This document shows, one piece after another, positions 23,148 to 28,940 of a DNA stretch of 64,000 nt. Each line of letters begins with the position of its first letter. Within the stretch, counting starts at the first letter, position 1. Both the position numbers and the translations under genes were made by a program. The notes under the pieces are model-generated. The model was not told the DNA's origin. It worked only from the letters and a program-made list of their open reading frames with translations, and made no database searches. Origin of the DNA: Lentisphaera araneosa HTCC2155 (GTDB lineage Bacteria; Verrucomicrobiota; Lentisphaeria; Lentisphaerales; Lentisphaeraceae); the NCBI RefSeq assembly GCF_000170755.1, contig NZ_ABCK01000009.1:1-64000 (forward strand). Direction: 5' to 3'.

Positions 23148-23627
23148 TTATGAGTTGTTTTCTTTTAAGTAAGTGATGATGTCTTGGAAAACTGGACGAT
23201 TTTCTTCGTTGGCGTCTATGAGTTCTTGGTGTGCATCGAGAATATTTTTATGTTTTTCTTCTTCGCTCATGTTTTCACTCTTTAAAGTGTGCATGGGGAT
23301 TTGCTGAGTCGAAGTGTTGGTGAAGTTGAGGATTTGGCTGATGCCTAAAGAATTAAAGTTCTTTTTGTTGGCTTCGTTGACATTGTTGAGCTCAACGGGG
23401 CAGGATTTCATGGTGCCCATTCTAGAAAGCATCGTGAGGATGCCCATGAAAGTACTATCCATGCCAGTGCATTCGAGCATATTGATGTCAATTTTTTGAG
23501 CAGAGCCTTCAATGGCCATCATGCAGAAGCTTCTAATGGCTTCGCTATTATCAAATGTACCTCGGCCTTTTACGGCGAGATGAGCAATATCTTTGTCCAT
23601 ACAAACAGTGATTGAGGCGCTTTGCAT
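23148..23627 (-). CDS. STAS domain protein (anti-sigma antagonist-like)
   Basis: The 159-residue protein has an N-terminal STAS fold (about 1-105) with the segment CTGMDSTFMGIL, whose Ser matches the phosphorylated residue of SpoIIAA-type antagonists. A C-terminal tail of about 50 charged residues is extra. It begins the ompH-lpxD gene run. Partner switching with an unseen kinase is likely by family; no RsbW-type kinase is nearby. Confidence 0.84.
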   Translation of the reverse strand: MQSASITVCMDKDIAHLAVKGRGTFDNSEAIRSFCMMAIEGSAQKIDINMLECTGMDSTFMGILTMLSRMGTMKSCPVELNNVNEANKKNFNSLGISQILNFTNTSTQQIPMHTLKSENMSEEEKHKNILDAHQELIDANEENRPVFQDIITYLKENNS

Positions 23628-23760: not shown

Positions 23761-24153
23761 TTATTCTTGCTCTGAAGAGCCACCATCATTGATAATAGAC
23801 TCAATAGCTTGGGATATTTTGGAGTGAAGAGCACTTTCAAAATATGTCCTATCTAAGCCGGGAGGCAAATGGAAACGTAAGTGCAGATCAAGCATGTTGC
23901 CGTCAGCAGGGGCTTGGGTGGCAGGCGTTTCTTTGTTATCCACGTCGTCGCTTTCTGATGCAGGAGTGATTTTCGATTCTTTGATTTCCAGAATATGGAG
24001 GTTATCTGGAAGTGAAATCTGGTCATCCATGTGCGCTATATAGAATGAGCTCTGAGGATCTTTCTCTAGTTTGATTGAAGCCTCTTGCAAACTTGCGGCT
24101 TCAGCAACAGAAGATACTTCGCCAAGAGGGAGGATGTATTTTTTTAGTGACAT
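23761..24153 (-). CDS. hypothetical acidic protein, 130 aa
   Basis: I do not recognise this protein. It has an N-terminal half with mixed strands and helices (1-65), a low-complexity acidic linker (SESDDVDNKETPATQAPAD), and a C-terminal segment (LDLHLRFHLPPGLDR) followed by an amphipathic helix. No signal peptide or membrane segment is seen. It has its own terminator, and the large DHH/DHHA2 gene lies 173 bp upstream in the same direction. The reading is supported by a clear start and by the terminator. Confidence 0.7.
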   Translation of the reverse strand: MSLKKYILPLGEVSSVAEAASLQEASIKLEKDPQSSFYIAHMDDQISLPDNLHILEIKESKITPASESDDVDNKETPATQAPADGNMLDLHLRFHLPPGLDRTYFESALHSKISQAIESIINDGGSSEQE

Positions 24154-24326: not shown

Positions 24327-26921
24327 TTATTTTGGCAGGAATGGCGTGATGTCTGCTTTCCGGCTATTCAGACTGCCTTGTTTGATTTTGAGGCATATAA
24401 TCGATCTTTTTTCTTTATTGTCTCGTATTGTGTAAGGCAACTTCAGGTTGTTTGTTATGATTGGTATGAGTATCTTGTTGTCCTCAGCGTTCGAGCCTTC
24501 GATGATGACTTCTTCAATAACGTCAGGGTATTTACTTGATTGTGTGAAGGTGTTAAAGAAAATTCTTAAGTGTGATTCAGCTTGTTCACTATTAGAGTTG
24601 ATACGAATCCAAATTTCATCACAGCCTTCTGAGTTTGAGTTTGATCCCTTCATTTCAATAGTTGAGTTCATCTGTAAAAAGAGATCTACAACAGAAGATT
24701 TCCGAGCAACAACTTCATTGCTATTTAACCAGCTCTCGAGAAGTGCATCACGATGCTCATTAAAACAATCGCGGTTATTGGGGAAGATTTTTAGTTGGCT
24801 AATTGCGCAGAACTCGTTTTGGATTTTGCGATCTTCGTAACAAAACTGGTGGTCTTTTGAGTTGGCTAACCATTGGCTAATCAAGACTTCGCGATAATCA
24901 AAAATGTTTTTGTAGAATGATTTTACATCTTCGTTATGGAGGAATTCCTTGATAGCGGCCTTGAGATCAGTTTTTGAAGCCCTGTTATATTTTTCTATGC
25001 TAAGAACTTGGACTTCTTTTTTACAGACGATGCTCTTCATGCGGTTGACGAGGTGAGCGACAGCACTGAGGTCACGCCATCCACATTTGTTGAAGAGGTC
25101 AGTATCATCAATAATAGCATTGAGCATGAGTGAGTATTCAATGAGCTCTCGTTCGGGGTTAATGAAATATTTGACCCCTGACCTGTAGACGGCTTGTTTT
25201 TTTTGGATTAAACGATTGAGAAGGCTAAAACCTTCAGAATTCAATGATTTGTTCTTGTGAAGTTCTGCCATTTGATCTTCGATTGAGTGAAGACTTTGGT
25301 TCTGACAACCATAACGATCGTTAATTGTGAAGGCTTGTTCGGCTATGATGACGTTGACAGATTGCACGTCTGCAATGGTGACCGTCATGCACTCTCTGGA
25401 GTTCATTTCCGACCTATGGTGATCGATAGCAGAGATCGTACGTACGCTTGGAGCAATTTTTATTTCGTCTAAATTACAGAAATCACGCAGTGTGACTGAA
25501 CCAAGGGAGTCGCTGACCATGTCCGAACGGTGAATCACCCCGACAGGGATAAGTCGTTGTTTTTTATCGTGGAAGCAAACTGTGACGTGCTGATAGCCAC
25601 GGAGCTTGTTCTTGATTTCAGTGGGTTCAGCTTTTGTACTAACGTAGTTGATTGTGTTGCCCAAAACTTCTTTTTTGACGGCAAGAGCGAGGTCCATGCG
25701 GTCATAGTAATTGCGACCAGCTTGTATTGAGGCACTTAAGTTGTCAAAAGCTTTGTTAAATGTGGCAAAGATTTTTGATCTCGCTAGAGAGAAGGCTTCG
25801 TTCTTGTAATCAAAGTTCTCTGGAGCAAGGAAAGAGTTCATGTGATCAACAAATTCACAGTAGTTCGAGTTCGAAACTTTATCCATGAATCTAAAGAAAT
25901 CGAGGAAGCTGGTTTTACTACCGTGCTCGAGCTTTAACACCTTTTTCAAATAGAGGTCCAAGAGTTCGCAATCTTGGTGGTGGTAGCGCTGGAAGCTCAT
26001 TTGACTGTCGCTTAAACTGCTGTTGAAGCTCTGGTCCAAGTACTCTTGTATTTCCTGATGAGTGATGGTGTCACGACTCATTAGCGCAGTGAAAGATGAT
26101 ATAAGTACTTTTTCGTATGAATGTATGGTGATGTTGAGCAGGCGCTGAATGCGACCTACCGTATCAACATCAGCTACGCGCCAGTCACCGAGGTAGTAGC
26201 CATCTTCATCCACCACGATTATGTGGTTAGTATTCCTTTCGTGTTGAAAGTCGCGGATGTTAGAATTGCCAGTTACACGAATCAATTTGTGTTGGTTGAC
26301 AATATCCATTGCCACTGGGGATATGAGAGACTTATGTTTGGCGACTCGACTGAAAACGTTGGGGGTGAAAATTTTGTTGAAAAAATGCGAGATGAGCGGG
26401 CTGGGCTCTCCCTGAGGGACATTCCAGACAGTAAGTGTTTGGCCAACTTTACAAGAGAAGGCATCCAACCAGCCAATAAAAGATCCCGTGGTACTATCGA
26501 GGTCTGGGGGATTGTGCGCCGTGATATAGTGCGAGTTTGGGTAGTATTTGTCGTGGCCAATAGGAAAGTAGAGTTGGTACTCATCTCTTGGGATGTGTTT
26601 CCCACTGATTTTACCACGAATAACGAACTGTTCTGCTTCATTGAGACCTGAGTGTTGGTTTAACCAACGTTCAAAAGCAGTAACATTAAATTTGCCGTCA
26701 AGGACGTGGCTCTCGGTGATTTTTGCCGCATAATCAATCACTTCTCTGAGTAGGAATGAATTGCGAGGTTCGGCTTCAATAAGCTCTAAGAGTGTTTTGT
26801 TGACCAACTCATTTCTTACGATGCTATTTTTATTGAGAAACTCTTGTGTGCAAAAGTTATTGAGGATTTCGTCCGTGTTTTTGAAAGATTTTTTTTCAAA
26901 AACTGTGTCTCCGATGAGCAT
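24327..26921 (-). CDS. large DHH/DHHA2 protein related to family II (CBS) pyrophosphatases
   Basis: This 864-residue protein has the ordered active-site motifs of family II pyrophosphatases. H136-x3-D140-x-D142 (AHNPPDLDS) matches the first metal motif. D500-H501-H502 (AIDHHRS) is the DHH motif. D605-D606-T607 matches the later SDT motif, and S853-R854-K855 with P860 matches the C-terminal SRKKQxxP substrate motif. Between the first two lie two CBS-like segments (about 213-252 and 443-470), placed as in nucleotide-regulated CBS pyrophosphatases. About 300 residues are extra: an N-terminal helical region (1-120), a middle insert (about 265-430) and a longer DHHA2 part. Hydrolysis of pyrophosphate or another phosphoanhydride is inferred only. 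Confidence 0.8.
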   Translation of the reverse strand: MLIGDTVFEKKSFKNTDEILNNFCTQEFLNKNSIVRNELVNKTLLELIEAEPRNSFLLREVIDYAAKITESHVLDGKFNVTAFERWLNQHSGLNEAEQFVIRGKISGKHIPRDEYQLYFPIGHDKYYPNSHYITAHNPPDLDSTTGSFIGWLDAFSCKVGQTLTVWNVPQGEPSPLISHFFNKIFTPNVFSRVAKHKSLISPVAMDIVNQHKLIRVTGNSNIRDFQHERNTNHIIVVDEDGYYLGDWRVADVDTVGRIQRLLNITIHSYEKVLISSFTALMSRDTITHQEIQEYLDQSFNSSLSDSQMSFQRYHHQDCELLDLYLKKVLKLEHGSKTSFLDFFRFMDKVSNSNYCEFVDHMNSFLAPENFDYKNEAFSLARSKIFATFNKAFDNLSASIQAGRNYYDRMDLALAVKKEVLGNTINYVSTKAEPTEIKNKLRGYQHVTVCFHDKKQRLIPVGVIHRSDMVSDSLGSVTLRDFCNLDEIKIAPSVRTISAIDHHRSEMNSRECMTVTIADVQSVNVIIAEQAFTINDRYGCQNQSLHSIEDQMAELHKNKSLNSEGFSLLNRLIQKKQAVYRSGVKYFINPERELIEYSLMLNAIIDDTDLFNKCGWRDLSAVAHLVNRMKSIVCKKEVQVLSIEKYNRASKTDLKAAIKEFLHNEDVKSFYKNIFDYREVLISQWLANSKDHQFCYEDRKIQNEFCAISQLKIFPNNRDCFNEHRDALLESWLNSNEVVARKSSVVDLFLQMNSTIEMKGSNSNSEGCDEIWIRINSNSEQAESHLRIFFNTFTQSSKYPDVIEEVIIEGSNAEDNKILIPIITNNLKLPYTIRDNKEKRSIICLKIKQGSLNSRKADITPFLPK

Positions 26922-27119: not shown

Positions 27120-28940
27120 ATGCCAATCAATTTATTTATTGCGTCAGCAGGGTATGGGAGTCGCTTGCGTCCAGTGACAAATTTGTACCCTAAACCTCTG
27201 TTGCCAATTGCGGGTCAAAGTTTGATAGATAGAATGATAGATCGAGTTTCTATGAGTGTGGATATCAATGAGATAGCTTTGAATGTTCACTATAAAAAAG
27301 AACAATTCGAAAAATGGAATGAAGCAAAGCAGTATCAATTTTTTGAAGAAGAAGAACTCTTAGGGACAGGTGGCGCAATATGGAATGCTCAAAACTTTTT
27401 CAAAAAACAGACAAGTCTGTTAATTAATGGTGATGTCTTGACTGATTTTGACTGGAAAGGGATGCTCGAATATCATGAAAATTCAGGGAATTTAGTCACC
27501 TTAGCCGTGCAAGATCGCGAGCATGAACGTCGAGTTGGAGCCTCTGGAAAAGGCGCGTTTATTTGCATCGATAAAGCAATGAAAGACCCTCGTGTCGAGT
27601 GTTGGTTCGGCTATGCCTGTGTGGTCTTGTACGAGCCAGGGTTTTTGAAATATTTACCTGCGGGGGAATCTCATGTTGTGCCTTTTTGGGAAGATGCACG
27701 TAATGCGGGTGAAAAAGTGGGCGTTTACGATATTGGGCGAGAGTCGGAATGGTTGGATTTGGGCAATGTGAATACATACGCCGCAGGTGTTTTAGAGAGT
27801 ATGAATGGAGTGAAGAGGTTCTTTGCAGAACCTTTAAATATTCCATGGGATTGCCAAATAGACTCTTATTGTGTCGTTGAACAAGGCGTTGAAATTGGAG
27901 GCGATGTGCAACTCTCTAATGTTATTTTATTGCCTGGTACAAAGGTGGCTCAGGGAAGTCGACTGCAAAATTGTATCCTTGGGCCCGGGATGAAAGTTGA
28001 TTTTGATTATACTGAGGCGAGTAAAAATAGCGATCTAGATACGATTGGTAATGGTGGTTCGGACAGGATTTACAGAAGGCGGGATGAGGGTGTCGTTTTA
28101 GACTACTCAAGCATTGATCATACAATTGAGCGTCAGAAAACACTTACACAGCGCTTGCTTGCAGAGAAAGTATCGGTCCCTCAAATTTATAATCACCGAC
28201 CAAAAGCTAGGCAATTAGTTTTAGAAGATTGGGGGGATGATACTTTTCGTCTATGGTCTCAAGGTAAGACTCAAGAGCAAATTTTAGGCAAAGCTAAAGA
28301 ATGCTTAGTTGAGCTTCATAAGTTCCAATCTATAGCGGAACCTTTGAGGGACAAAGTTTTTAATTTAGATGTCTTGATGTGGGAGAGTTCTTATTTTTTA
28401 GAGCGCTTTATTTTTCGTGTGGCAGGCTTGGAAGATGAATACAAAAAAAATCAGGCTCAAGTTGATGCGGAGCGCCTAAGTTTAGCGAATCAAGTGAATG
28501 GCTTAGATAAAGTTTTGATGCATCGCGATTTTCAGTCTGAAAATGTGATGATTCGTCAGGGGAGTGTAGGTTTGATTGATTTTCAAGGAGCGCATTATGG
28601 GCCCGCACTTTATGATGCGGCATCCTTCATTGGAGATCCTTACATGGATTATGATCTTGATTTACAAGAAGAGCTGAAAAACTATTATTTTTCAAAATGT
28701 GCTCATGTGACTGATACAAGTGAAAGTGACTATAACCGTTGTGCGATACAAAGGCACATGCAAGCCTTAGGTGCCTATGGTTTTTTAAGTCATATTCGAG
28801 GGAAAGGGAGTTTTGAGTTTTATATCCCCGTAGCATTAAAAATGTTAAATCGTGAGTTGGGGCTTCATCAAAATGAGTATGAAGCGCTATATTCATTGGT
28901 GCAAAGTGCTGCCGACAAACTTTCCATTAAAGTTAATTAG
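27120..28940 (+). CDS. fused sugar-1-phosphate nucleotidyltransferase / sugar kinase (MurU-AmgK-like)
   Basis: The 606-residue protein has an N-terminal nucleotidyltransferase (about 1-235) with GYGSRLRPVTNLYPKPLLP, LLGTGGAIWNA and NGDVLTDFD. A short hexapeptide-repeat segment follows (about 240-295), then an aminoglycoside-phosphotransferase-type kinase (about 308-600) with catalytic H468-R-D470-x4-N475 and metal ligand D487 (LIDFQGA). In Pseudomonas, AmgK phosphorylates MurNAc at C1 and MurU makes UDP-MurNAc in cell wall recycling; here both steps seem joined in one chain. The substrate could be another sugar. A 5'-nucleotidase gene starts 10 bp after the stop codon. Confidence 0.87.
   Translation: MPINLFIASAGYGSRLRPVTNLYPKPLLPIAGQSLIDRMIDRVSMSVDINEIALNVHYKKEQFEKWNEAKQYQFFEEEELLGTGGAIWNAQNFFKKQTSLLINGDVLTDFDWKGMLEYHENSGNLVTLAVQDREHERRVGASGKGAFICIDKAMKDPRVECWFGYACVVLYEPGFLKYLPAGESHVVPFWEDARNAGEKVGVYDIGRESEWLDLGNVNTYAAGVLESMNGVKRFFAEPLNIPWDCQIDSYCVVEQGVEIGGDVQLSNVILLPGTKVAQGSRLQNCILGPGMKVDFDYTEASKNSDLDTIGNGGSDRIYRRRDEGVVLDYSSIDHTIERQKTLTQRLLAEKVSVPQIYNHRPKARQLVLEDWGDDTFRLWSQGKTQEQILGKAKECLVELHKFQSIAEPLRDKVFNLDVLMWESSYFLERFIFRVAGLEDEYKKNQAQVDAERLSLANQVNGLDKVLMHRDFQSENVMIRQGSVGLIDFQGAHYGPALYDAASFIGDPYMDYDLDLQEELKNYYFSKCAHVTDTSESDYNRCAIQRHMQALGAYGFLSHIRGKGSFEFYIPVALKMLNRELGLHQNEYEALYSLVQSAADKLSIKVN

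Follow-up and report, generated by a model that had tools for sequence, protein, structure and literature searches.

An 864-residue DHH/DHHA2 protein with an inserted CBS pair is a probable soluble pyrophosphatase of Lentisphaeraceae and environmental Chlamydiota

The window analysed here, a stretch of 64,000 nt from Lentisphaera araneosa HTCC2155, contains a gene for an 864-aa protein that very probably is a soluble inorganic pyrophosphatase (PPase) of a divergent family II (DHH/DHHA2) branch, and the sole PPase in the cytoplasm of Lentisphaeraceae and of the majority of Chlamydiota outside Chlamydiaceae. The ORF is genuine and carries no internal stops. The original prediction had read in it the motifs of family II PPases, and all four of them (HxxxDxD in the form HNPPDLD, DHH, DDT and SRK) were confirmed at base level (Table 1). 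The ∼300 extra residues that it had counted are right when a CBS-PPase of ∼550 aa is taken as the reference; relative to a canonical PPase of 309 aa the excess is ∼555 residues. Between the two functions then proposed, a regulated family II-type PPase is supported by invariant catalytic residues, the predicted fold, weak Mn-PPase profile matches, an insert-less homologue and a reciprocal presence/absence pattern, and a new phosphoesterase that senses a nucleotide signal is not needed.

Table 1. Position of the 864-aa protein gene, its domains and motifs, and the adjacent orphan gene in the window.
Feature	Coordinates	Strand	Basis
Complete gene, 864 aa	24327..26921	minus	ATG at 26921, stop 24327-24329; kept across 46 aligned homologues
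All-helical N-terminal domain, aa 1-125	26547..26921	minus	AF2 secondary structure, pLDDT mostly 75-95 to ∼residue 110
DHH domain, first part, aa 130-195	26337..26534	minus	VIA alignment to family II PPases begins at residue 132
HxxxDxD metal motif, H136-N-P-P-D140-L-D142 (= H9, D13, D15 of B. subtilis PPase)	26496..26516	minus	46/46 invariant; aligned with 2eb0, 1k23
CBS1-like segment, aa ∼198-262	26136..26330	minus	VIA matches to CBS pairs 4gqy, 1xkf, 3l31
Helical segment between CBS domains, aa ∼263-405	25707..26135	minus	AF2 secondary structure
CBS2-like segment, aa ∼406-472	25506..25706	minus	Weak 1vr9 match; sub-threshold Pfam CBS; VIA
DHH domain, second part, aa 473-640, enlarged	25002..25505	minus	VIA, motif spacings
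D480 in invariant RDF motif (= bridging ligand D75)	25482..25484	minus	hhalign; 46/46, kept in insert-less homologue
DHH motif, D500-H501-H502	25416..25424	minus	hhalign, 46/46 invariant, base-level check
DDT motif with D606 (= D149)	25101..25109	minus	Homologue L078 vs 2eb0; invariant
DHHA2-like C-terminal domain, aa 688-864	24330..24860	minus	VIA, PPase alignments running to residue 864
D697xK699 (= D203xK205), then Q709 (= Q218)	24825..24833	minus	By-eye correspondence; both sides invariant within own families
S853-R854-K855 (= SRK of the SRKKQ signature)	24357..24365	minus	Alignment, base-level check
Orphan gene, 130 aa, directly downstream of the 864-aa gene	23761..24153	minus	

When the 864-aa protein was searched alone, nothing above threshold was found in Pfam, NCBIfam or the PDB sequences; no model reached a curated Pfam or NCBIfam threshold, which counts against PPase identity. 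Among all PDB sequences, the best match of the family profile was 2eb0, the Mn-PPase of M. jannaschii (E 0.0076), in an alignment that covers both HxxxDxD and DHH; its other matches were spike proteins, AMP deaminase and a CBS protein. The insert-less homologue returned three PDB matches only, all of them Mn-PPases (best E 0.0048). At the level of single members, the top weak NCBIfam matches were Mn-dependent PPase models and the CBS-type PRK14869 (best 6.9e-5), with PRK05427 lying below threshold in 12 out of 40 members (best 6.9e-5). Pfam DHH was likewise sub-threshold in 19/40 (best 8.4e-5) and Pfam CBS in 12/40 (best E 0.0033), and Pfam DHHA2 matched none of the 40. Comparison of the DHHA2 part alone with PPases by hhalign also gave no signal, and because sequence comparison recovers no DHHA2 similarity, the assignment of this domain rests on structure and motifs. 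Judged by current curated models, the protein would thus be placed in a related branch and not counted as a family II PPase member; it is family II-like by residues and fold and stands outside all curated models. The earlier claim of an undescribed family holds insofar as all curated models stay below threshold and we found no paper describing it, and has to be narrowed because the protein represents a divergent branch within a superfamily that is already known.

We next compared the catalytic positions in an alignment of 46 homologues that reaches down to ∼29% identity. Fifteen positions showed no variation in 46/46 sequences, insert-less forms included: H136, D140, D142, D480, D500, H501, H502, D606, D697, K699, Q709, S853, R854, K855 and P860. 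They correspond, in this order, to positions conserved throughout eight aligned family II PPases (H9, D13, D15, D75, D96, H97, H98, D149, D203, K205, Q218, S294, R295, K296 and P301). Invariance over such distances argues that the motifs did not arise by chance. The metal ligands of family II PPases are H9, D13, D15, D75, H97 and D149, and the equivalents of all six are present in all 46 homologues. One of them, D480, was absent from the ligand list of the original prediction; its equivalence to B. subtilis D75 follows from a profile-profile alignment by hhalign, which places SVTLRDFCN...AIDHHR on GVILVDHNE...VIDHHR of family II PPases (P 4e-4), and its distance to H501 is 21 residues, compared with the 22 of the B. 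subtilis enzyme. The correspondence of D606 was given by phmmer, where homologue L078 and 2eb0 were aligned as AIIDDTDLL and AIISDTVLF. The D697xK699...Q709 motif had also been missed, and its correspondence to D203xK205...Q218 was drawn by eye. At the C-terminus, SRK is present in 46/46 homologues, with the P five residues on; of the 46 sequences, 39 have Ala and only 2 have Lys at the fourth position. The second Lys of SRKK is therefore nearly always replaced, a result that counts against PPase identity. Two divergent homologues of 758/759 aa (L075 and L076, from genomes G502 and G503) have the full SRKK motif on a long branch, and may represent an intermediate on the way to canonical family II PPases.

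The predicted structures point to the same family. The first AF2 model, built with nine sequences (pLDDT 76.5, pTM 0.59), was compared with known structures by VIA, and nine family II PPases occupied ranks 1-9 (Z 12.2-14.2), the best being 1k20 (Z 14.2, rmsd 3.7 Å, 276/310 residues, model range 132-864). They were followed by the yeast exopolyphosphatase PPX1 and then by CBS pairs at residues 198-473 (Z up to 11.1). A second model, with a chlamydial query placed first, was weaker (pLDDT 69.5) and again matched family II PPases best (top Z 12.0), with CBS pairs also recovered. Both models contained the two-domain DHH plus DHHA2 fold, with low local confidence at the site loops (residues 120-138 and 469-520 in the first model) and pTM values of 0.49-0.59. 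DHHA2-type matches at residues 683-864 included Cdc45 and DhhP. The helical N-terminal domain, which canonical PPases do not have, is kept in the insert-less homologue.

The two CBS-like segments of the original prediction were borne out by structure, since residues 198-473 of the model matched CBS pairs at Z ∼9-11, although Pfam CBS stayed below threshold. Their position is between D142 and D480, inside the DHH domain. The regulatory region of the C. perfringens CBS-PPase was matched in both models (Z 8.8 and 10.6). With 3l31, VIA aligned only 102 of 234 residues. Residues 263-405, for which there was no Pfam match, are predicted to be all-helical and lie where characterised CBS-PPases have DRTGG. 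Two Chlamydiota genomes contain natural short homologues, of 511 aa (G454) and 621 aa (G452), that retain all catalytic residues. Between positions 212 and 472 they have 4 and 43 residues, respectively, compared with 260 in the 864-aa protein. As a consequence of this deletion, the distance from the last Asp of HxxxDxD to the D75 counterpart becomes 68 residues in G454, close to the 60 of the B. subtilis PPase. The natural deletion indicates that the CBS-bearing insert is a removable module, located at the same site as in CBS-PPases, and that D480 belongs to the catalytic core.

We then examined the distribution of the gene. It was found in 6/6 Lentisphaeraceae genomes (48-87% identity, the nearest named homologue being that of Lentisphaera marina, 87% identical) and in 148 out of 234 Chlamydiota genomes (∼29-37% identity), and was absent from all other sampled Verrucomicrobiota (388 sampled). 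A scan of one genome per species in 84,980 species, non-exhaustive as it used two short peptides as patterns, matched only Lentisphaeraceae and Chlamydiota. No relatives were found in plasmids, phages or viral contigs. The direction of transfer between Chlamydiota and Lentisphaeraceae is not given by our quick tree, which is unrooted and has long branches.

The strongest argument for the substrate comes from the comparison of this distribution with that of non-HAD PPases (family I, family II and membrane enzymes), searched with Pfam models. In the 234 Chlamydiota genomes, 148 carried the gene and 57 a family I PPase (PF00719), and only 3 carried both, when ∼36 were expected (Fisher P = 1.3e-26, a value inflated by the relatedness of the genomes by descent). 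The gene was present without family I or membrane PPase in 137 Chlamydiota. Two of the three genomes with both genes are G452 and G454, those with the short homologues. Along the genome order of Chlamydiota, seemingly a taxonomic one, the two states alternate many times, which suggests repeated replacement between the gene and family I PPase. Family I, membrane and DHHA2-type (family II) PPases were all undetected in the six Lentisphaeraceae; within Lentisphaeria, a known PPase was found in 0/6 carriers of the gene vs 21/24 non-carriers (P = 1.4e-4, inflated because kinship is uncorrected). Neither the gene nor the searched PPases were found in 16 Chlamydiota and 3 Lentisphaeria. Pyrophosphatase is as a rule essential, and the pattern looks like the non-orthologous replacement of an essential enzyme. 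It is mainly on account of this reciprocal distribution that we favour PPi as the substrate rather than polyphosphate or nucleotides. Other Lentisphaeria genera (L086-L088 among them) have DHHA2 proteins in ORFs of 566-620 aa, the ordinary CBS-PPase size; these and the 864-aa family share the class and never occurred in one genome (30 checked).

Several DHH-superfamily activities could be considered for such a fold. A short-chain or exo-polyphosphatase like yeast PPX1 or metazoan prune would apply the DHH-DHHA2 chemistry to polyphosphate ends instead of PPi, and Foldseek does rank the yeast exopolyphosphatase 2qb6/2qb7 first (E 1.6e-3); the VIA match to PPX1 extends over 331 residues (Z 11.9), and PPX1-type enzymes also do without the second Lys of SRKK. 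Nevertheless, the nine family II PPases outrank PPX1 in VIA, the weak sequence matches point to Mn-PPases, and near-exclusion with family I fits a PPase and not an exopolyphosphatase, so that we consider this activity very unlikely. PPX1 and prune are not known to have a CBS insert. A nucleotide or cyclic-dinucleotide phosphodiesterase of the NrnA, GdpP or DhhP type, which would degrade a nucleotide messenger or sense it, appears even more improbable: these enzymes do belong to the DHH superfamily, and Borrelia DhhP (9r7o) was aligned over residues 683-864 (Z 6.9), but their folds scored well below PPases, the DHHA1 GG(G)H motif was found in none of the 46 homologues and the C-terminus carries the SRK...P of DHHA2.

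A different question is what the insert does in a PPase. It might be merely structural or bind another ligand (a divalent metal, SAM or c-di-AMP), with no adenylate regulation. CBS pairs bind diverse ligands, and those matched by VIA were of mixed types, since MgtE (Mg), MJ0100 (SAM/MTA) and CbpB and OpuCA (c-di-AMP) appeared together with AMPK, AcuB and CBS-PPase. However, the insertion point equals that of the nucleotide-regulated CBS-PPases (PMC10742508), and the C. perfringens regulatory region is one of the matches. On these grounds we regard a PPase without adenylate control as a real but rather unlikely possibility, and adenylate regulation of the putative PPase through its CBS pair, by analogy with CBS-PPases, as probable.

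Under the PPase reading, H136, D140, D142, D480, H501 and D606 would hold an Mn/Co-Mg cluster on the DHH domain, and H502, K699, R854 and K855 would grip pyrophosphate upon closure of the DHHA2 domain. A metal-bridging water would then attack phosphorus, and MgPPi would be hydrolysed between DHH and DHHA2 by a di-metal mechanism. This catalytic half of the proposed mechanism is well supported. The CBS pair, formed by residues 198-262 and 406-472 and split by the helical segment, may act as an adenine-nucleotide-sensing brake on which AMP and ADP would inhibit and ATP or Ap4A would activate, by analogy with CBS-PPases. We infer PPi as the substrate, and likewise the metal, the nucleotide ligand and the direction of the nucleotide effect.

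Compared with the CBS-PPases of Desulfitobacterium hafniense, Clostridium perfringens and Moorella, the protein shares DHH, DHHA2 and a CBS pair inserted between HxxxDxD and the D75 strand. It differs from these ∼550-aa enzymes in its greater length, with an extra N-terminal helical domain and enlarged linkers, DHH and DHHA2, in the all-helical segment predicted at the place of DRTGG, and in having SRK[A/S/T] for SRKK, and there is no significant full-length sequence similarity. Characterised CBS-PPases are inhibited by AMP and ADP and activated by ATP and Ap4A, and many but not all carry DRTGG between the CBS domains (PMC10742508). A full-length high-resolution CBS-PPase structure does not appear in PMC7226116 and PMC10742508. 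With canonical family II Mn-PPases (B. subtilis PpaC 1k23/1wpm and M. jannaschii 2eb0) the protein has the fold in common (Z 13.7-14.2), and of their metal- and phosphate-binding residues it lacks only the second Lys of SRKK; canonical enzymes, of 309 aa, have neither N-terminal domain nor CBS insert, and the G454 and G452 proteins approach them by insert loss. As regards yeast PPX1 (2qb6) and prune, the DHH-DHHA2 fold is common and they fill the top Foldseek rows, whereas PPX1 is lower in VIA Z and the distribution favours PPi. In the text available, a review of microbial PPases refers to Chlamydia solely in connection with its family I enzyme, describes CBS-PPases of ∼550 aa and does not mention Lentisphaera (PMC11210485). 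Open-licence literature on PPase together with Chlamydiae and CBS or DHH yielded no description of the protein. Separately, E. coli and Klebsiella plasmids (L070, L071) were seen to carry an Mn-dependent PPase gene with a universal stress protein gene directly after it.

Regarding the locus, a promoter/terminator scan around the gene gave values near background. The 130-aa orphan adjoins it in 6/6 Lentisphaeraceae, was not seen beside homologues at four named Chlamydiota loci and has no Pfam match. Its product is a candidate partner of the DHH protein; the idea of an operon was dropped, since the pairing is limited to Lentisphaeraceae and the orphan has no family. Between the orphan and OmpH/LpxD genes, positions 23148-23627 (minus strand) encode a STAS protein resembling the anti-sigma antagonist RssC. 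MurU/AmgK-type peptidoglycan-recycling enzymes are as a rule encoded by two genes, and the divergent neighbour (27120-28940, plus strand) joins a MurU-like nucleotidyltransferase to an AmgK-like kinase in one 606-aa fusion protein, in which hexapeptide repeats separate the two parts.

Taken together, these findings propose a concrete function for a large conserved protein that no curated family covers, and one that would fill the PPase gap of all Lentisphaeraceae and most Chlamydiota in the sample, where Pfam-detectable PPases are seemingly missing. A broader reading, which we put forward tentatively and which may well prove wrong in some of its parts, is that this is an unrecognised regulated PPase subfamily that serves most environmental Chlamydiota and the Lentisphaeraceae as their only soluble PPase, alternates with family I by repeated replacement and ties PPi removal to the cellular adenylate level, and whose sensor is shed in lineages that gain family I (G452, G454). 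The insert-bearing and insert-less homologues offer a natural experiment on the restraint of family II PPases by CBS domains. If the broader reading is true, PPi removal, and hence all biosynthesis, would be coupled to the adenylate level in bacteria that are often energy parasites.
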